Positions 1,750-20,043 of a DNA stretch of 64,000 bases are shown in pieces. The stretch spans positions 62,001 through 126,000 of the forward strand of contig JAIXOE010000057.1 of the NCBI GenBank assembly GCA_027486895.1, in the 5' to 3' direction. The stretch is from Sphingomonadales bacterium. GTDB lineage: Bacteria; Pseudomonadota; Alphaproteobacteria; Sphingomonadales; Sphingomonadaceae. Position numbers and translations under genes: made by a program. The notes beneath the pieces are model-generated. The model saw nothing but the letters and a program-made list of their open reading frames with translations, was not told where the DNA came from and did not search any database. Position 1 is the stretch's first letter. Every line of letters starts with the position of its first letter.

Positions 1750-1765
1750 TCAACACCTATGTTGA
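1750..1765. promoter_or_regulatory. Palindromic operator, copy 1 of TCAACA-N4-TGTTGA
   Basis: TCAACACCTATGTTGA is a perfect 6-bp inverted repeat around a 4-bp spacer, between the divergent monooxygenase and SDR genes. The same 16-bp design recurs at 12146, 12330 and 19488, always in front of genes of this catabolic cluster. A TATAAT-like element (1771-1776) lies just beside it. The likely binder is the TetR protein encoded at 18650-19309; that link is inference. A second short palindrome, ATACTAACTAGTAT (1795-1808), lies closer to the SDR start. Confidence 0.6.
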
Positions 1766-1820
1766 AAGCATATAATACCACAAAGTTATTTGCAATACTA
1801 ACTAGTATGATTGCGAAAAT

Positions 1821-2591
1821 ATGGACGAATTTTTAGGCAAGATTGCATTAGTCACCGGGGCCGGAGCGGGAATTGGCCGTGCAATTGCGCTGCGGTTGGC
1901 AAGCGGCGGAGCCGATGTGGGTGTTTTTGATGTTAATGCTAACGCCGCGCAGGAGGTGGCTGAAGCTGTGGGCGACCTTGGGCGTCGCGCCTGTGTTGTT
2001 ATCGGCGACGTCGCGCAGCGGGACGCGGCGAGGGCTGCGGTTGCTGCGGTCGCCGCTGAACTTGGCGGAATCGATGTTATGGTAAATAACGCTGGAATAT
2101 TGCGCACAGCGTCGTTTCTGGACGTTAGTGAAAGCGATTGGCATTCGACCTTTGCAATTAATCTCGACGGAGTGTTTCATTTCAGTCAGGCTGTCTTGCC
2201 GGGAATGATAGAACGTGGGGCGGGTTGCATCATCAATATGTCTTCCTGGACCGGCAAAAAAGGTGTGCCAAATCATGCTGCTTATGGTGCGACCAAGGCG
2301 GCGATCATTAATCTCACCCAAAGCCTTGCTGGTGAATTCGGTGTATCAGGTATTCGTGTTAACGCTGTCTGCCCCGGTATCATTGTTGATACCAACATGC
2401 GCGCTGAAGCTGAGGAAATGAACCGTGTGCAAAACTTGCCAAGTGTCGCTGCGCGCGTCCAAGCTGTCCCGTTACGCCGTGCCGGCTACCCTTCTGAAAT
2501 AGCCGAAGTCGTGGCCTTTCTAGCTTCCGACAACGCCGCATATATGACGGGGCAGGCGATAAACATCACGGGTGGCCACTGGATGAATTGA
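1821..2591 (+). CDS. SDR family NAD(P)-dependent oxidoreductase
   Basis: Short-chain dehydrogenase/reductase interconverting an alcohol and a ketone with NAD(P). Seen: TGAGAGIG nucleotide-binding motif at residues 12-19, NNAG at 89-92, the active-site serine pair near 141-142 and YGATK with Tyr155 and Lys159. The 256-residue length is the classical SDR size. Followed after 12 bp by a GST gene on the same strand, so probably a two-gene operon driven from the operator-bearing region upstream. In this setting it could make the ketone that a neighbouring Baeyer-Villiger enzyme uses; that is inference. Confidence 0.9.
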   Translation: MDEFLGKIALVTGAGAGIGRAIALRLASGGADVGVFDVNANAAQEVAEAVGDLGRRACVVIGDVAQRDAARAAVAAVAAELGGIDVMVNNAGILRTASFLDVSESDWHSTFAINLDGVFHFSQAVLPGMIERGAGCIINMSSWTGKKGVPNHAAYGATKAAIINLTQSLAGEFGVSGIRVNAVCPGIIVDTNMRAEAEEMNRVQNLPSVAARVQAVPLRRAGYPSEIAEVVAFLASDNAAYMTGQAINITGGHWMN

Positions 2592-2603
2592 GGATTACGC
2601 AAA

Positions 2604-3269
2604 ATGATATTGATCAGTGCAACGCCAAGTCCCTTTGCGCGCAAAGTGCGCATTGCATTGATTGAAAAGGGAATAGCCTTCACTCTTCAGAACGAAGTGC
2701 CTTGGCATGCCGATACCCAGACTCCGTGCTATAATCCGCTGGAGCAGCTACCAATATTGATCCCCGATGACGGCGATCCCGTCTTTGAGTCGACCTTCTT
2801 GATGGACTGGCTTGAACATAAATATCCGGAGCCATCGATGCTTCCAGCCGATCCAGAGCGCGTGCTGGAGGCCAAGCTGATCCACACGATTGCAGAAGGA
2901 GTTGCTGACGCCACGGTACTTCTGTTCTGGGAAATGCAACGCGAACATATCAGCACCGAATGGACCCAACGGCAACTTAGGAAGGTTAAAGGCGGTCTCA
3001 CCGACCTCAACCGCCGCGTTGGCGACCGCGAATTTTTTGTTGGTGATCGATTTGGTTTGGCCGACATTGCCGTGATTGCATTGCTCGGTATGCAAGACAT
3101 AGTGATCAATACCGGCATGATTACCGCTTGGCAAAACTTCGCACCTGACATGGACGATTGGAATTTGCTGTATAGAAATCTAAAGCGGTTCGACGCACAT
3201 CACCGCGACAGGCCATCTGTGAAGCAAACTGCTCCATTTATGTTTGATTTGGCCGAGAAGATCGTTTGA
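2604..3269 (+). CDS. Glutathione S-transferase family protein
   Basis: 221 residues with an N-terminal thioredoxin-fold domain (SATPSPFARKVRIALIEKGI at residues 4-23, where Ser/Thr near the start would bind glutathione) and a helical C-terminal domain containing the usual FFVGDRFGLADIAVIALL signature near residues 140-157. Such proteins conjugate, isomerise or cleave substrates with glutathione in the cytoplasm. Translated just after the SDR gene, so likely part of the same catabolic transcript. The exact GST class is not evident. Convergent with the cyclase-family gene, with 5 bp between stop codons. Confidence 0.85.
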   Translation: MILISATPSPFARKVRIALIEKGIAFTLQNEVPWHADTQTPCYNPLEQLPILIPDDGDPVFESTFLMDWLEHKYPEPSMLPADPERVLEAKLIHTIAEGVADATVLLFWEMQREHISTEWTQRQLRKVKGGLTDLNRRVGDREFFVGDRFGLADIAVIALLGMQDIVINTGMITAWQNFAPDMDDWNLLYRNLKRFDAHHRDRPSVKQTAPFMFDLAEKIV

Positions 3270-3274
3270 GGGGA

Positions 3275-4051
3275 TTAATCCTCAAATATTGCCACCGCTC
3301 GCGTCCAGCCGGCCGATGCAGCGCGTATCTTCATCGGGAAACAGGCAATGGTAAATCCTGTGGGCGGCAGTACCTCTAGATTATGTAGCTTTTCGAGGTG
3401 ACAATACCCGATATCGCGCCCGGCTTTATGACCTTCCCAAATCAATTCCGCATTGCCAGTTGATTCATACGCTTCGCGTGTATGGACGAACGGCGCGTCC
3501 CAGCTCCAGCCGTCGGTTCCCGTCAAGCGGACGCCGCGTTCAAGAAGGTACATAGTCGCTTCGTATCCCATGCCGCAGCCAGATGTGACATAATTATCCT
3601 GTCCGTAACGCTTACCCGCAGCCGTGTTGACGACGACGATTTCAAGTGGGGAAAGCGTATGACCAATACGCGTGAGTTCTGCCTCTACATCAGCGGCGGT
3701 CACGACATAGCCGTCTGCGAATGTCGAAAAATCAAGCTTCACCCCGGGCTGAAAGCACCAATCGAGTGGCACTTCGTCAATCGTTATCGCACGCTCGCCC
3801 CTGTTCATCGTTGAAGCGAAGTGATAGGGCGCATCAAGATGGGTGCCGTTATGCGTTATCAACTCAACCTTCTCGATGGCCCAAGCCTCACCGTCCGGCA
3901 AATCTTGGGCCTTTAGGCCGGGGAAAAAGTTAATCAGGGAAGGGATCGAGGTATTGTGGTCGATATATTCGATCTTCGGCTGATATGGCGGCGGATCTGA
4001 GATTACGTCATTTTCGAGATAGATGGAAAGATCAACGATTGTCCGCGCCAT
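3275..4051 (-). CDS. Cyclase-family (kynurenine-formamidase-like) metal hydrolase
   Basis: 258 residues with the family's metal-binding signature HNGTHLDAPYH at residues 67-77, in which the two outer His and the Asp normally hold Zn or Mn. Relatives hydrolyse amides, lactones or isatin-type rings (KynB, isatin hydrolase). It is the last gene of a long minus-strand operon that begins with the monooxygenase at 12064, 3 bp after the BKACE gene. A lactone- or ester-opening step after Baeyer-Villiger oxidation is an attractive role, but this is inference; there is no tryptophan-pathway gene beside it. Confidence 0.82.
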   Translation of the reverse strand: MARTIVDLSIYLENDVISDPPPYQPKIEYIDHNTSIPSLINFFPGLKAQDLPDGEAWAIEKVELITHNGTHLDAPYHFASTMNRGERAITIDEVPLDWCFQPGVKLDFSTFADGYVVTAADVEAELTRIGHTLSPLEIVVVNTAAGKRYGQDNYVTSGCGMGYEATMYLLERGVRLTGTDGWSWDAPFVHTREAYESTGNAELIWEGHKAGRDIGYCHLEKLHNLEVLPPTGFTIACFPMKIRAASAGWTRAVAIFED

Positions 4052-4054
4052 GCA

Positions 4055-4981
4055 TTAAAACTCCACTCTGTCGCCGCCTTTGAGACCCAGCATAATGCGT
4101 GCCTCGCTCGGCGTCGCTGGTTCATGCCCCATTTCGCGAATTATGCGCACGATTTTTTCGACCTGCTGCGCGTTCGATACCGCAAGCTGGCCACGTTCGA
4201 TGAATAGGCTATCCTCGAGCCCGACGCGGACGTGCCCTCCCATGAGTGCGGCTTGAGTGAGAAATGGCATTTGATACTTGCCAGCGGCGAGGACAGACCA
4301 CTGGAAACTGTCCTTGCCAAACAGCCGGTCTGCGGTAGATTTCATGAACATCAGATTTTCAAGGTCAGGCCCAATGCCCCCCATTATTCCAAAGATCATC
4401 TGGATGAAGAACGGTGGCTTTACGGCGCCGCTATCGACAAAGTAGGCAAGGTTATAAAGGTGACCGACGTCGTAGCATTCATGCTCGAAACGCGTGCCAG
4501 CTTCACCCATTGTCTCCAATATTGTCGCGATATCACGGAAGGTATTCCGAAAAATGAAATCGTCGGAACCGAGAATATAATCCTTTTCCCAATCATGCTT
4601 CCAACTGCTGACGCGCTTGGCAGCGGGAAACATTGCAAAGTTTATGGTACCCATGTTGAGCGAACACATTTCGGGCTTGAATCTAACGGCGGCACGTAAG
4701 CGCTCGGCCAATGGCATCGTCGCTGAACCGCCGGTAGTGATGTTGACCACAGCATCGGTCCGTTGTTTGATGACGGGGAGAAACTGGTTGTAGACATCAG
4801 GGTCACCCGTGGGGCGGCCGTCCTCCGGCATCCGTGCATGAAGGTGAAGTATCGCGGCGCCAGCTTCGGCGGCTGCTACGCTTTGTTCAGCAATCTCTGC
4901 GGGCGTGCAGGGCAGCGCGTCCGACATAGTCGGTGTGTGCGCGCCGCCAGTTACGGCACAGGTGATTATGATCTTGCTCAT
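4055..4981 (-). CDS. BKACE family (3-keto-5-aminohexanoate cleavage enzyme-like) protein
   Basis: Zn-dependent TIM-barrel enzyme of the BKACE (formerly DUF849) family, which condenses a beta-keto acid with acetyl-CoA to give acetoacetate and a new CoA ester. Seen: N-terminal ITCAVTGGAHTPTMSDALP and ILHLHAR, whose His pair is the usual metal site. 308 residues from the ATG at 4981. The start is chosen because it overlaps the preceding stop as ATGA; an in-frame upstream extension of 15 residues is unlikely. Substrate range in BKACE is broad, so only the reaction class can be suggested. It implies that a beta-keto acid arises in this pathway. Confidence 0.85.
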   Translation of the reverse strand: MSKIIITCAVTGGAHTPTMSDALPCTPAEIAEQSVAAAEAGAAILHLHARMPEDGRPTGDPDVYNQFLPVIKQRTDAVVNITTGGSATMPLAERLRAAVRFKPEMCSLNMGTINFAMFPAAKRVSSWKHDWEKDYILGSDDFIFRNTFRDIATILETMGEAGTRFEHECYDVGHLYNLAYFVDSGAVKPPFFIQMIFGIMGGIGPDLENLMFMKSTADRLFGKDSFQWSVLAAGKYQMPFLTQAALMGGHVRVGLEDSLFIERGQLAVSNAQQVEKIVRIIREMGHEPATPSEARIMLGLKGGDRVEF

Positions 4982-5778
4982 TTGGGATCCATTAATGAAC
5001 GGCTTAGGCCGAGCCGGTCGGCGCAAACCTGAACGCGAGAGACTGCACCATCGGCCACGTCGAACAATCCGGCGAGCCGGAGGATCACGCTTTGGCCAAC
5101 AAGCGTAGTATCGAGATCGGGAAAGCCGCCTTTGTATTTCCCCGTACAGGAGAGGTGGAAAGCACCTCGATTGCCCGCCGAAAAAAGTTGATCGACCGTG
5201 ATATCTGCTATGGCAACAAGATCAGCAAAACGCGGACCTTCTGCACTGATTTCATCGATGCGTGAGGAGTCGGCCCAGCTGGCCGAGTCGTTAAGAAACG
5301 CACGCGCGATGGCCTCCACCTCGACATTAGGCGCTTCGCAGGGGGCGTCCCACGGGGCAGGGTGAGGGGATTGCACCACATCGCATGTGGCTTGTGCCAA
5401 CTGCCTTTTGCGGGCGAAATAATCTTCTTCGGCCCAACCCTGATGCAGTCGGCCATTTTTAATGCGGAATAACGTCACACCACCCCATGTCGAACGCCGC
5501 CCGTGGTGTCGGTTAGAGACCCCATGTTCGGTAAAACGCATGGCGACCGCATCGGGGCCAATGACAGTGTCATGTACTGTCACACAAAGGCCGGGAAATT
5601 GGTCGAGCTGTGCTGCGGTTGCAGGCAGATAGGCGTCATCGCGTCCGGCAAGGAGAACACCGCTTATACTGAGCGCATAATCGGGCTCCATAATCGTCTC
5701 CACCGCTGTCGGATTATGGCAGGTGAGAAAATCGACCGCGAAGCCGCGAAGTAACCGAGCGGATGGACTTATGGACAT
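4978..5778 (-). CDS. SnoaL / NTF2-like domain protein, probably two domains
   Basis: 266 residues. The first half (to about residue 120) reads as a SnoaL-like cone fold: conserved start ARLLRGFAVDFLTCHNPTAVETIMEPDYALSI-type layout and a GVTLFRIKNGRLHQGWAEEDYFARKRQL strand pattern. The second half looks like a repeat of the same fold (IARAFLNDSASWADSS at about 155-170). Such proteins are small isomerases, hydratases or cyclases, or have no catalytic role. The ATG at 5778 is chosen for its AAGGA ribosome site; it overlaps the end of the acyl-CoA ligase gene by 10 bp, and the next gene overlaps by ATGA, so the three are translationally coupled. Confidence 0.7.
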   Translation of the reverse strand: MSISPSARLLRGFAVDFLTCHNPTAVETIMEPDYALSISGVLLAGRDDAYLPATAAQLDQFPGLCVTVHDTVIGPDAVAMRFTEHGVSNRHHGRRSTWGGVTLFRIKNGRLHQGWAEEDYFARKRQLAQATCDVVQSPHPAPWDAPCEAPNVEVEAIARAFLNDSASWADSSRIDEISAEGPRFADLVAIADITVDQLFSAGNRGAFHLSCTGKYKGGFPDLDTTLVGQSVILRLAGLFDVADGAVSRVQVCADRLGLSRSLMDPK

Positions 5779-7295
5779 GCATTTTCCTTTAACCACTCAG
5801 GGTTTCGCATTTCTTTTTTGAGAATTTTGCCAGATGCATTCATCGGCAATTGCGTTACGAACGCCACTGAAGTCGGGCATTTATAATGAGCCAATTGCGC
5901 GCGTGTGAAAGCAATGAGTTCGGTTTCTGACGGATGGCTTCCGTTACGCACGACCACAAAGGCTTTCGGTGTCTCGCCCCAGCGCTCGTGGGGGACACCA
6001 ATAACGGCGACCTGCGTGACGTCGGGGTGTTGATAAAGCACATTTTCGATCTCAGTCGGGTAGATATTCTCCGCACCTGAAACGATCATATCCTTGTAGC
6101 GATCGTGCATGTAGATAAAGCCGTCTTCGTCGCGGTAAGCAGCATCACCCGTTCGCAGCCAACCGTCTGCTGTGGTCGCTCTTGCGGTTTCTTCAGGCTT
6201 GTTCCAATACCCGAGCATGTTGGCTTTGGAACGGATACGAATTTCGCCAACTTCCCCAACCGCTACCGGATTTTCTGTCGCTGGATTGACCAGCATCACC
6301 TCGTTCCAGGGCATGGGCCGACCGCATGACCGTAAGCGGTTGGCAAAGGGGCCGTCCGGCTCATGCTCTTCCGGCGCAAGCATCACGACGCTTCCGCCTG
6401 TTTCCGTCATGCCGTAGGTGTGCATAAACCCACAACCGAATATTTCGATCGCCCGTTTTAACACTGCTTCTCCAATGGGGGCAGCGCCATAGACAATGCG
6501 GTTAAGGCTAGTCAGATCCATGTCAGCAACACCGGGCAAGTCGAGCAGCATCTGGATTACGGTTGGCACGAAAAACCCGTGCGTGACTTTTTTACCTTGA
6601 ATGGCCGCGACGATGTCACGCGGCACAACTTGCTGCATCAACACTGTATGGCCACCCTGGCTCATGCAGGTCATTGCATAACCAATGCCACCAATATGAA
6701 AAAGCGGACTGGCGACTAGATTGACGCTTTGATCTGACATATCCCACAATTCGTGGGCCATCCGGGCAAGATATGACAGGTTGCCGTGACTGAGGACCAC
6801 CCCCTTGGGGGTCCCTGTTGTGCCAGACGTGTAGAGCAAAAGAAGCGGAGAATTTGGCGATGGTGTATGATCCGCGTCGTCGGGTTGCGCAGAGTCTCGC
6901 CACAGCGGATAATGACTCAGCAGAGTCCGGGTCTGATGCGGCATGTCAAGCGACAGCAATGGCTGAAATTCGTCTTCTATGAAAAGGAGCGACGGGGACG
7001 CGTCAGAGAGGATATCTGCGATTTCCCGTGCCGACAATCTCCAGTTGATAGGCACGAATATTACACCAGATTTCGCACATCCGAAAAATAGCTCAAAATG
7101 AACCGATGTATTGCGGGCAACGATGGCGACCCGGTCGCCTGATTGGATGTTCAAAGCTGCCAGCGCACGTGCAACACGACTTGCACGCGCGTCCACATCG
7201 CCAAAGCTCAATGTTTCCGTGCCGAATGTAAGGCACGGTGATTGGGGCTTTTGCGTAGCGTGAGTTCGCAACAACGTGACTAAGTTTGTTTCCAT
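5769..7295 (-). CDS. Acyl-CoA synthetase (class I adenylate-forming)
   Basis: Activates a carboxylic acid to its CoA thioester through an acyl-adenylate. Seen in 508 residues: the phosphate loop YTSGTTGTPKGVVLSH at 155-170, the YGMTETGG adenylate motif, the hinge region GWLRTGDAAYRDEDGF, and the C-terminal catalytic lysine in NASGKILKKEMR. Sits third-from-middle in the minus-strand operon between the acyl-CoA dehydrogenase (3 bp gap) and the SnoaL-like gene. It most likely feeds the side-chain acid of the pathway substrate into the CoA-dependent steps. Chain preference is not visible from sequence. Confidence 0.92.
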   Translation of the reverse strand: METNLVTLLRTHATQKPQSPCLTFGTETLSFGDVDARASRVARALAALNIQSGDRVAIVARNTSVHFELFFGCAKSGVIFVPINWRLSAREIADILSDASPSLLFIEDEFQPLLSLDMPHQTRTLLSHYPLWRDSAQPDDADHTPSPNSPLLLLYTSGTTGTPKGVVLSHGNLSYLARMAHELWDMSDQSVNLVASPLFHIGGIGYAMTCMSQGGHTVLMQQVVPRDIVAAIQGKKVTHGFFVPTVIQMLLDLPGVADMDLTSLNRIVYGAAPIGEAVLKRAIEIFGCGFMHTYGMTETGGSVVMLAPEEHEPDGPFANRLRSCGRPMPWNEVMLVNPATENPVAVGEVGEIRIRSKANMLGYWNKPEETARATTADGWLRTGDAAYRDEDGFIYMHDRYKDMIVSGAENIYPTEIENVLYQHPDVTQVAVIGVPHERWGETPKAFVVVRNGSHPSETELIAFTRAQLAHYKCPTSVAFVTQLPMNASGKILKKEMRNPEWLKENACP

Positions 7296-7298
7296 TGG

Positions 7299-8477
7299 TT
7301 AGTAACTCTTTGGTAACCCTAAGCTATGCGTTGATACATAATTCAGAATCATTTCGCGACTGACCGGGGCAGTTCGATGAAGGCGCGCAATAAACCACAA
7401 ATCGGAAAGACCATATTCGTTCGAAAGACCATTGCCGCCATGGACTTGAATTGCCTGATCGAGCGCTTTTAATGATGCTTCTGCCGCAGCAAATTTTGCC
7501 ATATTCGCAGTCTCGGCCGCGTCTTCCCCATTGTCACATAATTGGGCCGCGCGTGCGTTGAGAAGGCGGGCCGCTTGGACGTTGATATACGCCTCTGCAA
7601 GTGGGTGTGCCACCCCTTGATGCGCGCCTATTGGCGTATTCCAGACGGATCGGTCTTTGGCATATTGCGCGCCCTGTTCAATGGCAAATCTGGAAATGCC
7701 GTTGTTGATAGCCGCTGCAGCGATTCGTTCCGGATTCAGGCCAGCGAATACTTGCTTTAAACCCGCTCCGGCTTCTCCGATCAATGCATCTTGGGGAACC
7801 TCAACGTTGTCAAAGAATACGGTGAACTGCTTTTCGGAAGTGCGCAACGCTGCATCGATGCGGGTCATGGAAATGCCCGGCGTATTGGTAGGTACAACAA
7901 ACAACGACAGCCCTTGACGCGACCCGTCAGTGACAGGGGCACCATCGCGTGCAACGACCATAACGGCGGCGGATTGATCGATATCTGACGTCCAGTATTT
8001 AGCGCCATTAATGACCCAACGGTCACCGCGTTTAACCGCGTGTGTAGAGACTTTATGGGTATTGGAGCCTGCATCTGGCTCGGTAATCGCAAAACACATT
8101 TTGCGCTTTCCAGCCGCGATGTCGGGCAACCACTCGCGCTTCATTGCCTCTGTTCCCACACTCCCAATGATGGGCGCTGTGATCGAGGAAATAACCATAG
8201 CAAGTATCGGACAGCCTTGCGCTGCCGTTTCCTCGATACAGATATTTAATTCGGCCAGACCACCGCCACCGCCACCGTATTCTTCGGATACGTGCACGCC
8301 TAAAAAACCTGCGTCGCCCAATTCTCTCCACAGCGCGTCAGGCTGTTCACCTTTATTCACGACATCCTGAAAATACTTACGTCCGAATTTGCCAACGAGT
8401 TTGCTAACGCTATCGCGCAGGTCGCGATGATGCTCTGCGGTATCACATAACGAAGATTGAAATAAGTCAGATGCCAT
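7299..8477 (-). CDS. Acyl-CoA dehydrogenase
   Basis: FAD enzyme making an alpha,beta-unsaturated acyl-CoA. 392 residues with CFAITEPDAGSNTHK (FAD/substrate loop), an AKYWTSDIDQS region and the C-terminal QVHGGNGLSNEYGLSDLWFI. In medium-chain enzymes the catalytic Glu follows in a Y-E-G-T motif; here the corresponding stretch reads RLHRTAPVSREMI without that Glu, so the base may lie elsewhere or the subclass differs. The operon order ligase, dehydrogenase, 3-hydroxyacyl-CoA dehydrogenase, crotonase gives most of a beta-oxidation round, with the thiolytic or aldol step encoded separately at 19583-22213. Confidence 0.9.
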   Translation of the reverse strand: MASDLFQSSLCDTAEHHRDLRDSVSKLVGKFGRKYFQDVVNKGEQPDALWRELGDAGFLGVHVSEEYGGGGGGLAELNICIEETAAQGCPILAMVISSITAPIIGSVGTEAMKREWLPDIAAGKRKMCFAITEPDAGSNTHKVSTHAVKRGDRWVINGAKYWTSDIDQSAAVMVVARDGAPVTDGSRQGLSLFVVPTNTPGISMTRIDAALRTSEKQFTVFFDNVEVPQDALIGEAGAGLKQVFAGLNPERIAAAAINNGISRFAIEQGAQYAKDRSVWNTPIGAHQGVAHPLAEAYINVQAARLLNARAAQLCDNGEDAAETANMAKFAAAEASLKALDQAIQVHGGNGLSNEYGLSDLWFIARLHRTAPVSREMILNYVSTHSLGLPKSY

Positions 8478-8504
8478 GTGGGTTGCTCCAAAACTAAGTT
8501 GAAA

Positions 8505-9347
8505 TTATTGAGGCCAAGAGAAGAACCCCTCGCCGGATTTTACACCCAACTTACCCTCAGCGACCATATCAATGAGGATTTGGGGTGGTGAAAAACGGGC
8601 CCCATGCGCGGCCTCCAATGTGCGGGCGATATCGAGCCGCACATCGAGTCCGACGATATCACTCAAGCGCAGCGGCCCTACTGGATGCCGGTATGCAAGG
8701 ACTGCAGCCTTGTCGATATCTGCGGCAGTTGTAACGCCTGACTCAACCATTCGCATCGCTTCAAGGCTGGATATGAGATCGAGCCGACTGGTTGCGAACC
8801 CGGGTACGTCGCGCACCGTAAGCGATTGCTTGCCAAGCCATTCAACAAACTGCCGGGCCTCGGTGAGGGACGCTTCCGAAGTATGTTGGCCACGCACTAA
8901 TTCAACCAGAGGTAGCGACCAGACCGGATTGAAAAAGTGCATTCCCAAAAATATGGCTGGATCGGGCAAGGCTTGTGCCAGCCGATCAATTGACATGGCA
9001 CTTGTATTGCTACCGATCAATTTTGGCGCACGTGCTGAGATCGCAGCCAATATTTCAAGTTTGAGTTCTAGTTTCTCAGATACAGTTTCTATCGCGACAT
9101 CGACGGCCACTGGTACTTGTGCAACCGACGTCACCCGCTCAATTCGGGAACGAAGCGCATCTCCGCCTGCCTCGTCCATTTTGCCGCGCGCGATGGAGGA
9201 CAGAACGGTCTCATCGACAATGCGGCTGAAGGCCAAAGCGCGAGATTGATCGGGCTCCACAACCGTCACAGTCGCCCCTGCCATGGCGGATACATAAGCA
9301 ATGCCGACACCCATTGTGCCGCCTCCAACTACTGCGACGTGTTTCAT
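8505..9347 (-). CDS. 3-hydroxyacyl-CoA dehydrogenase
   Basis: NAD-dependent oxidation of 3-hydroxyacyl-CoA to 3-ketoacyl-CoA. Seen in 280 residues: N-terminal VVGGGTMGVGIAYV Rossmann motif, NTSAMSIDRLA, the catalytic-His motif MHFFNPV, and the C-terminal all-helical domain with GEGFFSW. The start at 9347 is preferred over an ATG five codons upstream because it overlaps the crotonase stop codon as TAATG. It is a stand-alone enzyme, not fused to a hydratase, fitting the split architecture of this operon. Confidence 0.9.
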   Translation of the reverse strand: MKHVAVVGGGTMGVGIAYVSAMAGATVTVVEPDQSRALAFSRIVDETVLSSIARGKMDEAGGDALRSRIERVTSVAQVPVAVDVAIETVSEKLELKLEILAAISARAPKLIGSNTSAMSIDRLAQALPDPAIFLGMHFFNPVWSLPLVELVRGQHTSEASLTEARQFVEWLGKQSLTVRDVPGFATSRLDLISSLEAMRMVESGVTTAADIDKAAVLAYRHPVGPLRLSDIVGLDVRLDIARTLEAAHGARFSPPQILIDMVAEGKLGVKSGEGFFSWPQ

Positions 9348-10111
9348 TAACGGCCTTTCCATTGAGGAGCGCGCTTTTCCGAGAATGCCCGAGCGCCCTC
9401 AAGGGCATCTTCTGATCGGATGACCAAATCTACCAACGGCCGTTGCAGTGTCCAAATATCGGCTTCTGGCCAATTTGGCGCTTCACGAACAATACGCTTT
9501 GTCATGGCAATACTTAGCGGCGCGTTGGCAGTGATTACCTTGGCCATCGCTATTGCCCCGTCCAGTGCGGCGCCTTCCTTTGTTACCCGGTTTACTAACC
9601 CCCATTTGTGGGCAGTATTGGCATCCATTCGCTCTCCGGTCAGGGCATATTCAAGTGCGATTGCTTCCGGAATCCGGCGCGGTAGACGGACAAGGCCACC
9701 AGAACCCGCTACCAGTCCGCGTTGAACTTCGGGCAATCCGAACCAAGCAGTTTCTGCCGCCACAATCAGATCACATGTAAGTGCTAGTTCACACCCACCA
9801 GCTAAAGCAAAACCTTCTACTGCAGCAATTAGCGGTTTTTCCGGCGGCGCCTCGGTTAAGCCTGCAAAGCCTCTACCTTCAATTTCCGGCCGCTCCCCAT
9901 CCGCAAACGCTTTCAAGTCCATGCCTGCGCAAAAATACCCACCATGACCGGTTATAATACCCACACGCAGTTCGGGGTCAGATTCCAGCCGGTCGATAGC
10001 GGTTGCGATGGCAAGCGACACTGCTCTATTAACGGCGTTGCGTTGAAGCGGCCGGTTTATCGAAATAATCAAAATTCCATCGAGCTGCTGGATTTCAACG
10101 GCATCCGACAT
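9347..10111 (-). CDS. Enoyl-CoA hydratase/isomerase (crotonase) family protein
   Basis: 254 residues with the two oxyanion-hole segments GYFCAGMDLKAFA (about 56-68) and FALAGGCELALTCD, followed by GLPEVQRGLVAGSGGLVRLPR, where the Glu is at the usual catalytic position. Likely a 2-enoyl-CoA hydratase, though crotonase-fold enzymes also act as isomerases or C-C hydrolases. Coupled to the next gene by TAATG overlap and 3 bp downstream of the long monooxygenase. A separate MaoC-type hydratase pair is encoded at 19583-20580, so the two hydratases probably serve different intermediates. Confidence 0.9.
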   Translation of the reverse strand: MSDAVEIQQLDGILIISINRPLQRNAVNRAVSLAIATAIDRLESDPELRVGIITGHGGYFCAGMDLKAFADGERPEIEGRGFAGLTEAPPEKPLIAAVEGFALAGGCELALTCDLIVAAETAWFGLPEVQRGLVAGSGGLVRLPRRIPEAIALEYALTGERMDANTAHKWGLVNRVTKEGAALDGAIAMAKVITANAPLSIAMTKRIVREAPNWPEADIWTLQRPLVDLVIRSEDALEGARAFSEKRAPQWKGR

Positions 10112-10114
10112 CGT

Positions 10115-12064: not shown

Positions 12065-12145
12065 AATTGCGCTGTCATCTGCTTTCTGTCTGCATCGCCT
12101 CAAAGCGCGCTTCGATTGCAAAAATTATCCGCAAAAATGAAATTG

Positions 12146-12161
12146 TCAACATGTACGTTGA
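12146..12161. promoter_or_regulatory. Palindromic operator, copy 2
   Basis: TCAACATGTACGTTGA: the 16-bp TCAACA-N4-TGTTGA design with one arm mismatch (C for T) at the inner edge. The symmetry extends outward as ATTGTCAAC / GTTGATAAT with one mismatch. It lies upstream of the long monooxygenase operon. Candidate TetR-family binding site; see the copies at 1750, 12330 and 19488. Confidence 0.55.
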
Positions 12162-12329
12162 TAATATTTCTAAGTTGGCCACTGGAGATAGTGAAATATC
12201 GAATGTCTGATATAATCGAGTATGTTAAAAATACGATTTATAAACAATATTTTAAGAACGATAATTGATTGAAATTTGACTTGACGCATTAGGTTGTGCC
12301 TATCCAACGCACGTGCTTTCTAGGCCTAT

Positions 12330-12345
12330 GCAACAGAGGTGTTGA
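12330..12345. promoter_or_regulatory. Palindromic operator, copy 3
   Basis: GCAACAGAGGTGTTGA: the same 16-bp design with one mismatch at the outer edge (G for T). It is about 90 bp upstream of the TonB receptor start, placed so that a bound repressor could block transcription of the receptor, PQQ dehydrogenase and aldehyde dehydrogenase genes. Confidence 0.5.
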
Positions 12346-12437
12346 CGAACCAGAAATTATCTGGCTACATTACTGTTGATAAGAGTGGCGACTCGATATG
12401 CCACCGAAAAACAAGCTTAGTTGGAGAGGGAGTCGAG

Positions 12438-15029
12438 ATGAGGAAAAGCAGAACGTTATTGTACACAGCTGCCGCGGTTGGCCTGATGGCCATAACTACC
12501 CCAGCACATGCGCAAAATGAACAAAGCACGTCGGACACTCAAGATGGCCTCGGCGAAATCATTGTGACTGCAACCAAACGCAACGAAAACCTTCAAGATG
12601 TGCCGGTCGCAATAACTGCCATCACGACCGAGCAGCTAACCAAGCAGGGTGTTTTTTCGACCGCGGACCTAAACAACTCTATTCCTAATCTTCAAGTCAG
12701 CTCTGCCTATGGCGAGACACAACCCAACTTCACGGTTCGCGGGATCGGTGTGGGCACAGAATACAACTCTAATGCGGCCTCGCCAGTTGGGGTGTACGTG
12801 GACGAAGTTTACCAATCATTTCGCGCCAGTCATGGCCAACAATTGTACGACCTTGAGCAAGTGGAAGTCGTTCGCGGTCCTCAAGGAACGTTGTTTGGCC
12901 GAAACACTACCGGGGGTGCTATTAACTTTATAACCCGGAAGCCACGCCTTACCGGTTCCAACGGGCACGCGACGATCGGATACGGCTCTTTCAATCGCAT
13001 AAGCGCACTTGGCGCGATTGAGGTAACGCCCGTCGAGGATAAGCTAGGGATCCGCATTGCGGGTAGTTATGTGAATTCCGATCCTTACGTAAAAAATATC
13101 CAACCGGTAGGCTTGATCAAGTCTAATCCTAATGTCCCAGATAATGTTGCATTCGGCGACCAGAATGCTGGAATTTCGCCCGGCGGACATGAAACTTGGG
13201 GTCTTCGTGGCCAAATTAGGTTTGTCCCCACCGACACGATTGACATCAATTTTAAAGCGTATGTTGCTCAGTCGGTCGGCGGGCAAGATTCGCCTCAAAA
13301 TCACGGGCCATCCCTAACCGATGACACCATAAGCTTAGCAGACTCTGCTTTTGGCTTTTTTTACACGCCACTTGCCAGCACGTTGTTTGGCAATGGGAAC
13401 GATTTGACCCGATTTCTGCCACCTGCATATAGCGCGAAGGGTCGGGGTCTCTCTGCCAGGGAAATCGAGGGTAACTCAATTGGTACCGCCGAAACAAAAA
13501 CCTTTGGCGCAGTTCTGAATGCTAAATTTGAGTTGTCTGACAGCGTCAACCTGACTTCAATCACTGGGTTTGATAGGACACGAAACGGATTACTGCCGCG
13601 TATCGATTGTGACGGTACTCCGTACAATGTGTGCTCAATCGGTTACGCTTCATTGTCCAAGAGCTTTAACCAAGATCTCCGCGTCGATTTCTCAACTGAC
13701 CGATTTAAAGCCATCGCTGGTGTATATTATGGTTGGGATAAAATCGTCACAAATAACACCCCAGATTTTTACGGCTTCCTAAGCGACGTTAACGCCGCTA
13801 TTGGAAATCCGAAAAATTACTTTAACCCAGCGGGTCTGGGGCGTGAAGCCGGTTTAGCAACTGCATTGAAGGCAAAGCAGGACTATACCCAAGAGCGTAA
13901 ATCGATGGCCATATATGGCGAAGCAAGTTACGAGCTTACCGACAGTGTAAAGTTCACCGCCGGGCTCCGTTACACGAGAGATAAGTTTGCTTATCTTGAC
14001 GCCCTCACCACATTTTTTGATGATACCGGTGCCCCCCGACTTTACACTGTATCAGACTATGCTCCAGGTGGCGTTTTCCAAAAATACTTTATTGGTGATT
14101 CCGCAGCGCTGGATGCAAGCATTAAGCCTCTGAACCGCCGCGATGGTTCAAACGCTCTAACAGGCCGTGCAATCCTCGACTGGAAGGTCAACGACGACGT
14201 TCTTCTCTACGCAAGCTACAGTCGTGGCTATCGTGGCGGAACATATAATGGCCTTGCATTCCAGTCCGCAGCGCAAGTTTACTTTGTGGAACCGGAAAAA
14301 GTGGATGCATTTGAAGTCGGCATGAAGAGCCGCTTCTTTGACAACCGCCTCCAGTTTAACGCCTCAGTGTTTCATTATAAATATGCAGGTCAACAGCAGC
14401 AATTGCTAGATCCAAGCTCAGTTACATTCTTGATTAACCTTGACGGCAAACTTACGGGTCTTGACGCTGAGCTTATCTTTGCAGTGACAGATGACATCCG
14501 CCTGAATGCTGGCTTTGGATATCTTGATAGCAGCTTCAACAGTGGTTCGTGTCCGACTGCGCCAATTAATGGTACGCCACCTCAAGTAGGTAATTGCATT
14601 TCCACAGCAGGTGGTAAAATTGACGTCGGCGGAAATCCGTTTCCTTATGCCAGCAAAGCGTCAGGAAATATTGGCGTCGACTGGGATGTTGCCAAAACGG
14701 AATCAGGAACATTTACGGTTCATGCTGACACCAGTTACACCGGACGCTACTACTACGACGTTTTTGGATCCTATGACTATGTGGGACCTCAAGGTAGTTC
14801 TGTGCTTTCCGGTAGAGGGCCGCTAGGTGAAGGGCAAGACCCGTATTGGCTGATCAACGGGCGAATTTCCTATACCACCGACAGCTTTACTATTGCTGGC
14901 TTTGTTAAAAACCTGACCGATAAACTATATTATCCAAATGCGATCAACGTTGAAGGAAGCTATGGTAGCGATTATCGGATTCGCGCAGCACCGCGCACCT
15001 TTGGAGTGGAACTCTCCGCAAAATTCTAG
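12438..15029 (+). CDS. TonB-dependent outer-membrane receptor
   Basis: 863 residues from the ATG at 12438, which follows GGAGAGGGAG; a 33-residue in-frame extension upstream is not expected. A signal peptide (MRKSRTLLYTAAAVGLMAIT, cut after AHA) is followed by a TonB-box-like EIIVTATKR, the plug domain with VEVVRGPQGTLFGRNTTGGAINF, and a C-terminal beta-barrel ending in Phe. In sphingomonads such receptors often import plant- or pollutant-derived aromatics and terpenoids rather than iron. The catabolic context and operator upstream support substrate uptake; no Fur-like site is visible here. Ends in a strong terminator. Confidence 0.92.
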   Translation: MRKSRTLLYTAAAVGLMAITTPAHAQNEQSTSDTQDGLGEIIVTATKRNENLQDVPVAITAITTEQLTKQGVFSTADLNNSIPNLQVSSAYGETQPNFTVRGIGVGTEYNSNAASPVGVYVDEVYQSFRASHGQQLYDLEQVEVVRGPQGTLFGRNTTGGAINFITRKPRLTGSNGHATIGYGSFNRISALGAIEVTPVEDKLGIRIAGSYVNSDPYVKNIQPVGLIKSNPNVPDNVAFGDQNAGISPGGHETWGLRGQIRFVPTDTIDINFKAYVAQSVGGQDSPQNHGPSLTDDTISLADSAFGFFYTPLASTLFGNGNDLTRFLPPAYSAKGRGLSAREIEGNSIGTAETKTFGAVLNAKFELSDSVNLTSITGFDRTRNGLLPRIDCDGTPYNVCSIGYASLSKSFNQDLRVDFSTDRFKAIAGVYYGWDKIVTNNTPDFYGFLSDVNAAIGNPKNYFNPAGLGREAGLATALKAKQDYTQERKSMAIYGEASYELTDSVKFTAGLRYTRDKFAYLDALTTFFDDTGAPRLYTVSDYAPGGVFQKYFIGDSAALDASIKPLNRRDGSNALTGRAILDWKVNDDVLLYASYSRGYRGGTYNGLAFQSAAQVYFVEPEKVDAFEVGMKSRFFDNRLQFNASVFHYKYAGQQQQLLDPSSVTFLINLDGKLTGLDAELIFAVTDDIRLNAGFGYLDSSFNSGSCPTAPINGTPPQVGNCISTAGGKIDVGGNPFPYASKASGNIGVDWDVAKTESGTFTVHADTSYTGRYYYDVFGSYDYVGPQGSSVLSGRGPLGEGQDPYWLINGRISYTTDSFTIAGFVKNLTDKLYYPNAINVEGSYGSDYRIRAAPRTFGVELSAKF

Positions 15030-15040
15030 AAGATTAAAGA

Positions 15041-15075
15041 GACACCCGCGCTGATAGTTCTGCGCGGGTGTCTTT
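15041..15075 (+). terminator. Rho-independent terminator after TonB receptor
   Basis: GACACCCGCGC (15041-15051) pairs perfectly with GCGCGGGTGTC (15062-15072) across a 10-nt loop, followed by TTTCCTT. It sits 12 bp after the receptor stop codon and may separate, or partly attenuate, expression of the downstream dehydrogenase genes. Confidence 0.8.
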
Positions 15076-15112
15076 CCTTATGGCGAGGTAAATTGAGACA
15101 GGACGGATAATT

Positions 15113-17200
15113 ATGCGCAAGCTTTGTGTGGTCTTAGCCATGGCTTTTTTGGTTTCGTGCGGGTCCGGGTATGAGGATGGCGTAATAGACACTTCCCGCT
15201 TGGACGGCGCGGCTTCCGAAACCCAAAACTGGCTGACATACGGCGGTACCTACGAAGAACAGCGTTACAGTGGTCTGGAAGAAATAAACGCTGAGACGGC
15301 TAGCAGCCTCGGCCTTGAATGGTCCCATGAGTTTGACACGGCGCGTGGGTTAGAAGCCACGCCGCTTGTGGCAGACGGGGTGATCTACACAACCACTGCA
15401 TGGTCCAAAGTTCATGCGCTTGATGCGACCACGGGTAAGCTGCTGTGGAAATATGATCCGAAAGTACCGGGGGAAACAGGTTTCAAGGCTTGCTGTGATG
15501 TCGTCAATCGCGGCGCAGCAATTTATAATGGCAAAATTTATTCTGGTACGTTGGACGGGCGCCTGATTGCCCTTGATGCCAAGACGGGCAAGCTTGTTTG
15601 GTCCGTCGTCACCGTTGACCAGAGCAAGCCTTATACGATCACGGGCGCACCTCGAATCGTCAAAGGCCGCGTGCTTATTGGCAACGGCGGCGGTGAATAT
15701 GGTGTCCGTGGTTATGTGTCTGCATACGACGCAGAAACGGGTAAGCAGGCGTGGCGCTTTTATACGGTTCCGCCGGCGAAAGGCGCCAAGCCTGACGGAG
15801 CGGCGTCCGATGATATTATCGCCAAAATGCAAGACACTTGGGATGGCGATTACACCAAATTTGGTGGCGGCGGTACCGTATGGGACGCAATTGTTTACGA
15901 CAAGGATTTCAATCAAGTCCTTATCGGTGTGGGCAATGGATCACCATGGGATCACCGTGTCCGTTCGAATGGAAAGGGTGACAATCTGTTCCTGTCGTCT
16001 GTGGTTGCGCTTGATGCCGATACGGGCAAATATAAATGGCATTACCAAGGAACGCCCGCCGAAACTTGGGATTTCACGCAGACACAGCCGATCATTCTCG
16101 CATCGTTGAAAATTGGTGGGGCTGATCGCAAGGTCATGATGCAAGCACCGAAAAATGGCTTTTTCTACGTTATAGACCGAAGCAACGGCAAACTCGTTTC
16201 GGCGAAGAATTTTGTACCGCAAAATTGGACTTCGGGCGTGGATATGAAAACCGGCAGACCTATAGAGATGCCAGGTGCCCGTTATGAAAATGGACCTTTC
16301 GTAGCTAATCCCTCAGGCCACGGCGCCCACAACTGGCAGCCTATGGCGTTCAGCCCGAAGACCAATCTGGTATATATTCCCGCACAGGAAGTGCCGATGG
16401 CTTACCAATCTGATGCGCCATTTGTCGGTCGAGAAGGGGGTTGGAACCTCGGCGTGAACCTAGCAATCAATACCCTACCTGACGATGAGGCTGGACTGAA
16501 AGCCATCCGTGCAATTCTGAAAGGCGTCTTGATCGCTTGGGATCCCATAAAGCAAAAGGAAATGTGGCGGGTCGATCACGGTGGTCCTTGGAACGGTGGC
16601 GTGTTGGCAACTGCTGGCGGCTTGGTTTTCCAGGGTAACGCCAAAGGCGAGTTTAATGCATTTAACGCAACCAGCGGCAAAAAACTGTGGTCATTTGACA
16701 GCAAGATTGGGATCGTGGCGCCTCCGGTTAGCTACTCGGTTAACGGCAAGCAATATGTTGCGGTGATGGTCGGTTATGGCGGCGGCTATGGCGTCGCCAG
16801 CCCCTTCACAGAAAATATGGGACCACGGCCCAATGGCCGACTGCTGGTATTCGCGATTGGCGGAAAGGCACCCTATAAGGTGGAACGTATGGATCCCGGT
16901 CCGGCAGTTGTCGTGAAAGGTGAATGGTCGGCCGCTACCGTCGCCAAAGGTGCACAAATTTTCGAGACTACCTGTTCTGTATGCCATGGCGGCACAGCAC
17001 GATCTTCCGGCGTCTTGCCTGATCTGCGTCGCTCGCCGGTATTGGCTGACGAGAAATTATGGCAAGAAGTGGTCCATGATGGAATACTGAAGGACAATGG
17101 TATGGTTGGCTTCAGCAAATGGCTGTCGCGTGAAGATGTGGAGGCTACACGCGCCTATGTTGCTGGTCGAGCGAAAGTCCTGGCGACCAAGGGCATCTGA
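15113..17200 (+). CDS. PQQ-dependent quinohemoprotein alcohol dehydrogenase, lipoprotein
   Basis: Periplasmic oxidation of alcohols (to aldehyde) with electrons passed through a covalent heme c. 695 residues: lipoprotein signal ending LVSC near residue 16; eight-bladed propeller with repeated ALDAxTGK blade motifs; the adjacent Cys127-Cys128 pair that forms the ring near PQQ; C-terminal cytochrome c domain with heme site CSVCH at residues 621-625. This is a type II layout, but with a lipobox instead of an ordinary signal peptide. Its position after the receptor and before an aldehyde dehydrogenase suggests successive oxidation of the imported substrate. PQQ biosynthesis genes are not in the window. 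Confidence 0.92.
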   Translation: MRKLCVVLAMAFLVSCGSGYEDGVIDTSRLDGAASETQNWLTYGGTYEEQRYSGLEEINAETASSLGLEWSHEFDTARGLEATPLVADGVIYTTTAWSKVHALDATTGKLLWKYDPKVPGETGFKACCDVVNRGAAIYNGKIYSGTLDGRLIALDAKTGKLVWSVVTVDQSKPYTITGAPRIVKGRVLIGNGGGEYGVRGYVSAYDAETGKQAWRFYTVPPAKGAKPDGAASDDIIAKMQDTWDGDYTKFGGGGTVWDAIVYDKDFNQVLIGVGNGSPWDHRVRSNGKGDNLFLSSVVALDADTGKYKWHYQGTPAETWDFTQTQPIILASLKIGGADRKVMMQAPKNGFFYVIDRSNGKLVSAKNFVPQNWTSGVDMKTGRPIEMPGARYENGPFVANPSGHGAHNWQPMAFSPKTNLVYIPAQEVPMAYQSDAPFVGREGGWNLGVNLAINTLPDDEAGLKAIRAILKGVLIAWDPIKQKEMWRVDHGGPWNGGVLATAGGLVFQGNAKGEFNAFNATSGKKLWSFDSKIGIVAPPVSYSVNGKQYVAVMVGYGGGYGVASPFTENMGPRPNGRLLVFAIGGKAPYKVERMDPGPAVVVKGEWSAATVAKGAQIFETTCSVCHGGTARSSGVLPDLRRSPVLADEKLWQEVVHDGILKDNGMVGFSKWLSREDVEATRAYVAGRAKVLATKGI

Positions 17201-17226
17201 TAGATACCGGATTAGGAGAGTTTGTA

Positions 17227-18645
17227 ATGGAAGTGCGCTACGACATGCTAGTGAACGGTAAAATGATCGGCGGTAGCCGAACGGTTGATGTCGTTGATCC
17301 GGCGACCGAAGAAGTGTTTGCGGCCTGTGCCTGCGCGTCGCGTGAAGAGATTGAAGATGCTGTAACCGCTGCAGCGGTCGCGTTCCCAGCCTGGTCCGCG
17401 ACCTCGATCGATGAGCGCCGTGCTGTGCTCATTAAAATGGCTGAAGCCATTGAGGCGAACATCGAATCCATCGCCCGTACGCTGACTCGTGAACAAGGAA
17501 AACCAACGGCCGATGCACAAGGCGAGGTCGGCGGAGCCGCTTATTTTCTGCGTTATTATGCGGGGCTAGAAATCCCTGTAGAGTTGATTGAAGACAGCGA
17601 AACTCGGCGGATCGAACTACACCGCCGCCCGCTTGGTGTGGTTGCTGCGATCGTGCCGTGGAATTTTCCGGTTCTTACCGCCGTAAATAAGGTCGGTGCA
17701 GCGTTAATTACGGGTAACACCGTGGTCGTAAAGCCAGCTGCAACCACACCCCTGGCAACATTGCAGGTCGCAGCACTTTGGAGAGATATTGTTCCAGCGG
17801 GCGTTGTGAATATTGTCACCGATAAGAATGATCTCGGCGATGTGCTCACCAGTCATCCGATGGTACGTAAAGTCAGCTTCACGGGATCGACCAGTACAGG
17901 CATGAAGGTCATGTCGTCAGGCTCTGATACGCTCAAGCGAATGACATTGGAACTCGGCGGAAATGATTCCGGCATCGTTCTCGACGACTGTGATCCCGAT
18001 ACAGTCTCACAGCAACTATTCGATTCTGCCTTCATGAACAATGGTCAAGTCTGTATCGCGCTAAAGCGTTTGTATGTGCATGACAGCAAGTATGACGCCA
18101 TCTGCGCAAAACTCGCTGAAATTGCAAAAGCAGCTGTTGTCGGACCGGGCTCGCAGCAGGGCACACAGCTTGGTCCTGTGCAAAACCGTGTTCAATTCGA
18201 CAAGCTGAAGGCCCTGATCGAGGAAACGCGAGCCGAAGGAACCATAATCGCAGGGGGTGACAGCCCCGACGGTCAGGGGTACTTCATTAATCCCACAATC
18301 GTGCGTGATATTTCGGACAATGCGCGTCTGGTTACTGACGAACAATTTGGCCCAGTTTTGCCGGTCATGCGCTTCTCAGACGTCGATGACGTCGTCGCAC
18401 GCGCGAACGACAGTAGTTTTGGCCTTGGCAATTCGGTTTGGTCGTCGGACAGCGAAAAAGCCGGCGCAGTTGCTGCGCGGCTCGATTCCGGCACCGTGTG
18501 GATCAACAAACACGGAGACATCGGTCCTGATACTCCCTTCGCCGGAGCGAAAATGTCAGGCGTGGGTATCGAAATGGGGATGCATGGCTTGCTCGAATTT
18601 ACGCAGGCCAAAGTTATGAACTTTGCAAAAATGGCAAACGTTTAA
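17227..18645 (+). CDS. NAD(P)-dependent aldehyde dehydrogenase
   Basis: 472 residues of the ALDH superfamily, oxidising an aldehyde to an acid. Seen: PWNFPVL substrate/cofactor loop, GSTSTG, the general-base motif LELGGND, and the catalytic cysteine NNGQVC with Cys276. A clear GGAGAG ribosome site precedes the ATG. It follows the PQQ dehydrogenase by 26 bp and so presumably handles its aldehyde product; the acid could then be activated by the CoA ligase of the opposite operon. Convergent with the TetR gene with 4 bp between them, leaving no room for a stand-alone terminator. Confidence 0.92.
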   Translation: MEVRYDMLVNGKMIGGSRTVDVVDPATEEVFAACACASREEIEDAVTAAAVAFPAWSATSIDERRAVLIKMAEAIEANIESIARTLTREQGKPTADAQGEVGGAAYFLRYYAGLEIPVELIEDSETRRIELHRRPLGVVAAIVPWNFPVLTAVNKVGAALITGNTVVVKPAATTPLATLQVAALWRDIVPAGVVNIVTDKNDLGDVLTSHPMVRKVSFTGSTSTGMKVMSSGSDTLKRMTLELGGNDSGIVLDDCDPDTVSQQLFDSAFMNNGQVCIALKRLYVHDSKYDAICAKLAEIAKAAVVGPGSQQGTQLGPVQNRVQFDKLKALIEETRAEGTIIAGGDSPDGQGYFINPTIVRDISDNARLVTDEQFGPVLPVMRFSDVDDVVARANDSSFGLGNSVWSSDSEKAGAVAARLDSGTVWINKHGDIGPDTPFAGAKMSGVGIEMGMHGLLEFTQAKVMNFAKMANV

Positions 18646-18649
18646 CTGG

Positions 18650-19309
18650 CTAAGGTCCGTAAGGACTTTCGAGCCCAGCCAGCAACAATTCGGCATAGGT
18701 CTTGCCGATTTCTTCTGCGCTGACATCGCTTCGATCGGGCCGGAACCAGCGATGGGTCCACCCGACGATGCCTAATATACCATATGCAACGACACGAGAT
18801 GATCCCACTTTACGTAGGCTGTTATCGGCATAGCCCTCTTCTACGATTGAAATGACCGAATCAACGGTCTCGGCATTGATTTTGCGCATAGACTTTGACC
18901 ACTCAGTTCGTGCATCGCTCACATGGCTGAGATTCTCGCGAATATATATGTAGAACAGGGGGTAATTGTCTCCGTAGGAGGTCATCAATGTATTGACCAA
19001 GTCGCGCAGTTTGCGGCGAGGGCTGACGCCGCTTGATTCTATCTGTTTGATGAGCTCGAGGTTGCGTTCGACCACCGTGCGCACGAGTTGGTCAAACAAT
19101 TCCTCTTTTGATGAAAAGTAATAATACAGAGATGCTCGATCGATATCGAGTTCGGCTGCTACCGCACTCATGCTGGCGCCTTTAAAGCCCCGACGGTTAA
19201 AAACGCGAATTGAGGCTTCGGCAATCTCTTTTCGGCGCGCGTCATATGATGCGCTTGAATCGTCTTTTGCAAGTTTGCGGCGTTTCCCGATGTTACTCAC
19301 TGGTTTCAT
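18650..19309 (-). CDS. TetR/AcrR family transcriptional regulator
   Basis: 219 residues. An N-terminal helix-turn-helix spans roughly residues 27-72 (IAEASIRVFNRRGFKGASMSAVAAELDIDRASLYYYFSSKEELF), then an all-helical ligand-binding domain ending GWTHRWFRPDRSDVSAEEIGKTYAELLLAGL, a tail often seen in regulators of acyl-CoA and steroid catabolism. It is the only DNA-binding regulator inside the catabolic cluster and lies beside two of its operons, so it is the best candidate to bind the four TCAACA-N4-TGTTGA palindromes. An acyl-CoA inducer is likely for this subgroup but unproven. Confidence 0.9.
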   Translation of the reverse strand: MKPVSNIGKRRKLAKDDSSASYDARRKEIAEASIRVFNRRGFKGASMSAVAAELDIDRASLYYYFSSKEELFDQLVRTVVERNLELIKQIESSGVSPRRKLRDLVNTLMTSYGDNYPLFYIYIRENLSHVSDARTEWSKSMRKINAETVDSVISIVEEGYADNSLRKVGSSRVVAYGILGIVGWTHRWFRPDRSDVSAEEIGKTYAELLLAGLESPYGP

Positions 19310-19487
19310 AAATCGTCCCTAGTTTCCATTCTATACTCGCATATTCTAGCGCCGCCCCAACATCACGAATTTGTCAGGACGTTCGCCGCACTGCCACTAT
19401 TCCGGTGCCTTGCGCAATCAGCGATTCAGCCGATTCGATTGCCGCCGACAACTAGATTAAGGTGCTTGCACTAACATTGCAGCTTTT

Positions 19488-19503
19488 TCAACAATAGTGT
19501 TGA
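19488..19503. promoter_or_regulatory. Palindromic operator, copy 4 of TCAACA-N4-TGTTGA
   Basis: TCAACAATAGTGTTGA, a perfect 6-bp inverted repeat with 4-bp spacer, 80 bp before the first MaoC-like gene and in the gap shared with the TetR gene. A TTGCAC (from 19466) lies about 17 bp before its start, so the palindrome would cover a -10 region. The repeat matches copy 1 exactly in both arms. Confidence 0.6.
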
Positions 19504-20023: not shown

Positions 20024-20043
20024 ATTAAGCAAGGGAACGAACG

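Follow-up and report, generated by a model that had tools for sequence, protein, structure and literature searches.

The window is a stretch of 64,000 nucleotides, corresponding to positions 62001-126000 of contig C37 in a genome of 2.87 Mb. Its left part carries a catabolic gene cluster that includes a TetR-family regulator and several copies of a short palindrome, TCAACA-N4-TGTTGA (Table 1). Same-strand genes continue out of the window to the left of the first Baeyer-Villiger-type monooxygenase (BVMO) and encode an acyl-CoA ligase, a cyclase and a CoA hydrolase/transferase, some of which were named from sequence only. The BKACE protein scored 513 bits (cutoff 430) and the operon to the right of the regulator gave a match to NF004715 of 460.8 bits (cutoff 424). 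The second MaoC-like protein of that operon (20044-20580) had no match in Pfam or NCBIfam and was named from its sequence.

Table 1. Genes and probable operator sites of the cluster. Positions are those of the window unless prefixed with the contig (C37).
Feature	Position	Strand	Place or basis
Upstream operator	C37:41419		Between BVMO and acyl-CoA ligase
Upstream operator	C37:44905		Upstream of CoA-transferase
Upstream operator	C37:55620		Upstream of TonB receptor-P450-MFS run
Baeyer-Villiger-type monooxygenase	56..1681	-	Profile and sequence
Operator 1, perfect TCAACA-N4-TGTTGA	1750..1765		Separates divergent BVMO and SDR-GST genes
SDR and glutathione S-transferase-like (GST) pair	1821..3269	+	SDR by Pfam; GST named from sequence
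Same-strand run: BVMO, enoyl-CoA hydratase, hydroxyacyl-CoA dehydrogenase, acyl-CoA dehydrogenase, acyl-CoA ligase, SnoaL-like, BKACE, cyclase	3275..12064	-	Beta-oxidation genes and ligase named from sequence only
Operator 2, one mismatch	12146..12161		Upstream of BVMO/beta-oxidation operon (- strand)
Operator 3, one mismatch	12330..12345		Upstream of TonB receptor-PQQ dehydrogenase-ALDH
Degenerate operator copy, two mismatches	12364..12379		34 bp from the 12330 site
TonB-dependent receptor, PQQ alcohol dehydrogenase with cytochrome c domain, aldehyde dehydrogenase (ALDH)	12438..18645	+	PQQ enzyme by profile match; receptor and ALDH named from sequence
TetR-family regulator, proposed operator binder	18650..19309	-	Pfam and site co-occurrence
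Operator 4, perfect	19488..19503		Separates TetR from MaoC-MaoC-DUF35-thiolase operon
MaoC-like hydratases, ChsH2/DUF35 zinc-ribbon OB protein, Ltp2-like thiolase (hydratase-aldolase type)	19583..22213	+	

The sequence-only reading had described four palindromes in regulatory gaps, two perfect and two with one mismatch. All four were recovered by pattern search, and all are intergenic and lie between divergent genes once likely start codons are applied (approximately 1681 for the BVMO and 1821 for the SDR, 12064 for the second BVMO and 12438 for the receptor, 19309 for TetR and 19583 for MaoC). Nine matches with at most two mismatches were found in the window compared to a shuffle mean of 2.62, and none of 100 shuffles reached nine. 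Operator 1 has a TATAAT at 1771-1776 on its + side. The minus-strand half-site of operator 2 runs out into TTGACA, and the half-sites of this operator are kept in three relatives. Operator 4 is also perfect in relatives L031, L032 and L033. Among three close relatives compared, the copy matching the degenerate one has a one-mismatch form in L031 and is lost in L033. In the gap at 12 kb, aligned across four strains, 20 of 24 columns in the half-sites are invariant compared to 126 of 317 elsewhere. A one-mismatch copy at 51966 falls within a 791-codon ORF, read as a GGDEF/EAL protein, and is probably due to chance.

Genome-wide, the pattern occurs at 20 places with at most one mismatch, compared to five for the reversed pattern, and four of these are perfect compared to none. 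The sequence-only reading had held that matches should be confined to the cluster. This is borne out for the perfect matches, all four of which lie in the 40 kb of C37:41419-81503, a region that holds seven of the 20 matches against an expectation of 0.18 based on the remainder of the genome. Twelve one-mismatch matches are on other contigs, and ten of them coincide with ORFs of 150 codons or longer, nine clearly inside; the tenth (L153) touches only the first codons of a TTG-start ORF. Of the remaining two, L150 has no covering ORF and is upstream of an integrase, and the ORFs at L154 are short (90 and 65 codons).

Three further operators, two perfect and one with one mismatch, were located upstream of the window. 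With them the regulon is larger than the sequence-only reading had proposed. The tally comes to seven operators (four in the window and three upstream) and approximately 36 genes, counted as same-strand runs from each operator with operon limits set by strand and spacing only. The genes include outer-membrane receptors, a CYP101-like P450, several BVMOs, acyl-CoA ligases, a beta-oxidation set, BKACE and the hydratase-aldolase module. This content suggests a pathway of outer-membrane uptake, P450 hydroxylation, Baeyer-Villiger oxidation, alcohol/aldehyde oxidation, CoA activation, beta-oxidation, BKACE cleavage and a retro-aldol step. The P450 is nearest to CYP101D/camphor enzymes, its top two relatives being CYP101D enzymes, and one BVMO is nearest to steroid and phenylacetone monooxygenases. 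These similarities do no more than suggest an alicyclic, possibly terpenoid, substrate class, which the pathway as a whole would also fit.

The regulator at 18650-19309 was identified by Pfam as TetR_N (56.1 bits, cutoff 24) and TetR_C_24 (54.6 bits, cutoff 26.4). It was far below the NCBIfam cutoffs for KstR (NF033703, 29.9 bits compared to 280) and FasR (NF053731, 46.7 bits compared to 330). The AlphaFold model (mean pLDDT 84.8) has the all-helical TetR fold with a C-terminal ligand/dimer domain, and is nearest to PfmR, KstR2, AibR and FadR, and also to DarR. The recognition helix reads DRASLYYYF. The palindromic operator over controlled promoters that is typical of the family is also found, at the sequence level only, as a palindrome of fixed spacing outside genes beside most orthologues.

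Loci with TetR orthologues were searched for the site. The relatives with the most similar TetR (94-97% identity) carry the label Sphingorhabdus or Sphingomonadales. The N4 spacing gave 20 perfect and 47 near sites over 28 loci with orthologues of at least 55% identity (480 kb), while each of the 12 other spacings between N0 and N12 gave no perfect and zero to four near sites. These are not 28 independent cases, since near-identical relatives are included (e.g., L031/L032, L035/L036/L046 and L041/L042). At least one N4 site was present in 21 of the 28 loci. No site with at most one mismatch was found in the available stretch of the other seven (L039, L042, L119, L121, L122, L125 and L126); of these, L039 and L125 are short stretches and L119 continues L118, where sites are present. 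The DRA(S/T) helix is present in five of the seven siteless loci, so the helix alone does not predict nearby sites. Gene order varies across the orthologue loci, and the sites lie between BVMO and acyl-CoA ligase genes, ahead of the MaoC-MaoC-DUF35-thiolase operon and ahead of TonB receptors. Leaving out the seven siteless loci and the near-duplicates L031, L036 and L046, 37 of the 39 sites in the other 18 loci are outside matches to cluster genes, which span 61% of that DNA. The first spacing count, which had L112, L113, L115 and L116, chosen at least partly for motif matches, was replaced. The final count omits L113, L116, L123, L129 and L130; L112 and L115 were kept in its group B on the basis of a TetR homologue found there by protein search. 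L127 and L128 repeat L043 and L044, L155 repeats part of G122, and G329 is not independent of L031.

A protein scan of 199 family genomes, including that of the window, gave TetR homologues in 14 at E 1e-20, and in ten of these genomes the identity is at least 55%. A perfect site was present in eight of these ten genomes compared to 22 of the 189 others (Fisher p 4e-6), and two or more perfect sites in six of ten compared to three of 189. G088 and G091 each have one perfect site, distant from their TetR gene, which makes the near-TetR count six of the ten genomes. Among the 172 genomes with neither this regulator nor the second TetR of the cluster, 21 carry a perfect site, in line with chance. 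Two genomes were found later by TetR homology. One (G426, 67% identity) has three sites within 8 kb of TetR, and the other (G335, 58%) has one near site approximately 16 kb from TetR and just upstream of a TonB_A orthologue. The sequence-only reading had assigned the palindromes to this TetR as a guess from proximity, and the co-occurrence and single spacing across genomes lend that assignment comparative support.

The same spacing was found beside remoter homologues. In 12 loci with homologues of 28-45% identity there were 13 perfect and 40 near N4 sites, and other spacings gave no perfect and zero to five near sites. The recognition helix is DRA(S/T)-x-YYY in 11 of the 12; the exception, L168, has NRAS and five near sites. 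Loci L169 and L172 have a DRA(S/T) helix yet are siteless. In Nocardioides jensenii (TetR 44% identity), 8 kb contain four N4 sites, two of them perfect. Three perfect and two near sites were found over 31 kb of a Rhodococcus ruber plasmid (TetR 37%), which was scanned once the motif was already fixed and carries BVMO, cyclase, thiolase and zinc-ribbon genes. N4 sites also surround paralogues of approximately 28-36% identity in G035, G177, G127, G486, G455, G011, G093 and G070, many by CYP101-like P450 genes; G127, G486 and G455 had been picked as weak comparators and carry clustered sites round their paralogue. No N4 sites were found around the G152 paralogue or the 45% homologue of G088. Firmicutes-group homologues (64 loci, all of L047-L110, with a few from other phyla by title) gave no perfect and four near N4 sites, not above other spacings, and their helix is mostly TKG(T/S)FYYY. 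Among the orthologues the helix is DRSS in L118 and DRST in L122 and L125, and that of L117 was not covered. L122 and L125 are without strict sites and have looser ones, a hint of coupled change.

The palindromes are very probably operators of the TetR at 18650-19309, with seven in 40 kb over approximately 36 genes and a repressor that would be released by a pathway intermediate. The conserved DRAS-x-YYY recognition helix, together with a conserved N-terminal Arg-Arg arm, would hold a TetR dimer on TCAACA-N4-TGTTGA. The 64 distinct sites, near-identical relatives included, have an informative core of 6+6 bases and a weaker outer preference that extends both edges to TGTTGAC(A/T)A. Following the embedded TTGANN, spacers of 14-18 bp are enriched in strong -10-like hexamers (18/620 compared to 8/2604); the -10 weight matrix was set from the -10 consensus, the spacer range was picked once the counts had been seen and some of the sites are related to each other. 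The operators appear to contain -35 boxes. Many half-sites have an outer TTGAC that can act as a -35, so a bound dimer would cover the -35 region and keep RNA polymerase off the two divergent promoters that flank it. With 179 bp between the nearest operator and the TetR gene start, it is uncertain whether TetR controls its own gene. TetR would be freed from the DNA by a pathway intermediate, for which an acyl-CoA thioester is the most likely candidate. A CoA-thioester effector is plausible from the model because the fold relatives include the acyl-CoA-responsive AibR and FadR; DarR, solved with nucleotide ligands, scores as high.

The outer TTGAC also resembles a -35 box in its own right, and an inverted repeat could come from divergent promoters. 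It is nevertheless scarcely credible that the palindromes are paired divergent -35 boxes, or chance repeats, with no dedicated regulator. From -35 boxes alone one would expect neither a constant N4 spacing, nor a conserved inner CA, nor sites that depend on the presence of TetR, and the reversed pattern had no perfect match in 199 genomes. A chance origin was rejected on the spacing control, the reversed-pattern control and the concentration of sites in the genome. The cluster offers another candidate binder in its second TetR (C37:49841-50491, outside the window), which is 28% identical to the first and likewise has TetR_C_24 as its C-terminal Pfam domain; some of the orthologue clusters (L035, L037 and L046) contain it too. 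However, its recognition helix differs (TKPFIYGHF compared to DRASLYYYF), as does that of its orthologues. Genomes with a homologue of the second TetR but without the first (E 1e-20) had a perfect site in none of 13 cases, while those with the first and without the second had one in five of five, the G091 site being remote from the TetR gene. The second TetR was therefore disfavoured as the binder, both for its helix and because the site does not track its presence, and binding by it, or by both TetRs jointly, is very unlikely.

Sharing of the site among several paralogous TetRs of the subfamily, each reading one operator with a different effector so that the sites act as shared nodes, is somewhat less remote but still unlikely. 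Paralogues of 28-34% identity with DRA(S/T)-x-YYY helices lie among the same N4 sites in G035, G177, G127, G486 and G455, and several genomes have two to four family members; Sphingopyxis sp. FD7 is another carrier of several. In the window's own genome, however, only one family member was found at E 1e-20, so this explanation does not apply there unless a more distant member exists. It qualifies control by the TetR at 18650-19309 in other genomes more than it replaces it. A broader proposal can be put forward tentatively, that TCAACA-N4-TGTTGA is an operator code common to the whole DRA(S/T)-x-YYY TetR subfamily in Alphaproteobacteria and Actinomycetota, cross-wiring separate P450/BVMO/CoA clusters within a genome. 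If the code is shared in this way, the repressors, having diverged to approximately 30% identity, probably have different effectors while the site read stays the same.

KstR2 and PfmR are regulators of catabolic CoA pathways, and their operators differ from TCAACA-N4-TGTTGA. KstR2 (4w97, 4w1u) and PfmR (3vpr) are among the closest solved relatives of the window TetR by sequence and fold, at 21-24% identity. AibR, solved with isovaleryl-CoA and operator DNA (5k7z), has the same fold and is a precedent for an acyl-CoA effector, but it is only 21-22% identical and serves another pathway. The nearest printed operator encountered was that of SACE_5754, a TetR-like regulator of Saccharopolyspora erythraea, whose footprinted site A is TCAACA-n2-TGTTGA with a consensus allowing n2, n4 or n11 (PMC6346578). 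The likeness is in the half-site and its orientation; site A has the n2 spacer and the targets are other than those of the window regulon. At N2 spacing no site with at most one mismatch was met in the 28 orthologue loci. EdcR of Caenibius tardaugens has a TetR_C_11 C-terminal domain and a proposed operator, TnnCnnTACnAnTnGTAnnGnnA, that overlaps the -10 box (PMC8700777). EdcR resembles the window TetR as a TetR repressor from a sphingomonad: the cluster it belongs to is catabolic, its operons diverge and a palindrome lies over the promoters. It differs in pairing TetR_C_11 with TnnCnnTACnAnTnGTAnnGnnA where the window has TetR_C_24 with TCAACA-N4-TGTTGA, and the four window sites differ in sequence from TnnCnnTACnAnTnGTAnnGnnA. 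A Pfam search at E 0.001 did not find TetR_C_11 in the window TetR, which has TetR_C_24 and a sub-cutoff TetR_C_29 instead. The TetR regulons LiuQ, FadP and PsrA for acyl-CoA catabolism in Proteobacteria were rebuilt by comparative genomics (PMC5343134), and the sections available of that study name no regulon with the window motif or gene set. The literal spellings of the motif that were tried led to no paper in the openly licensed library searched. The regulon appears to be new, the kind, a TetR repressor with palindromic operators, is known, and the operator is unusually constant across distant homologues.

These results provide a testable repressor-operator pair, with its sites, spacing and helix, for a large and apparently uncharacterised sphingomonad cluster for alicyclic, possibly terpenoid, degradation. 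The operators mark out candidate genes of the degradation pathway, and the operator code lets related clusters be found in other genomes, including the Rhodococcus plasmid. The use of one operator by diverged paralogues raises the question of crosstalk, and the operator code is also a possible biosensor part.

Before the TonB receptor, outside the window, the predicted operator lies at the centre of a 38-bp palindrome comprised of two 15-bp arms flanking an 8-base centre. Operators recurred in pairs with a spacing of 23 or 34 bp, approximately two or three helical turns, and these may be occupied by side-by-side dimers.

Positions of the operators, site and genes described (L, individual DNA loci; C, contigs of the genome).
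Feature	Position
Extended palindrome	L007:5610-5647 (C37:55609-55646)
Operator pair	L043:9639/9662
Operator pair	L044:10725/10748
Operator pair	L118:10060/10094
Operator pair	window 12330/12364
One-mismatch site	L153 (C43:4475)
Acyl-CoA ligase gene	L173:12837-14311
TetR-family fragment	L117:5731-6189

The orthologues at L122 (genome G088) and L125 (genome G070) had DRST in the recognition helix in place of DRAS. No strict sites were present at these two loci and (A/G)CAACA-N4-TGTTGT-like sites were found instead.

In a near relative, two separate, adjacent matches were obtained for the acyl-CoA ligase gene, which therefore looks broken or misassembled. The cluster copy on the Sphingopyxis sp. 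FD7 plasmid (G122) contained a TetR-family fragment that is interrupted by one internal stop and shows 56% identity. Several longer TetR family members were also encoded on this plasmid. Outside the cluster, the one-mismatch site at L153 was located at the very beginning of an ORF reading like a phasin, possibly a stray regulon member.
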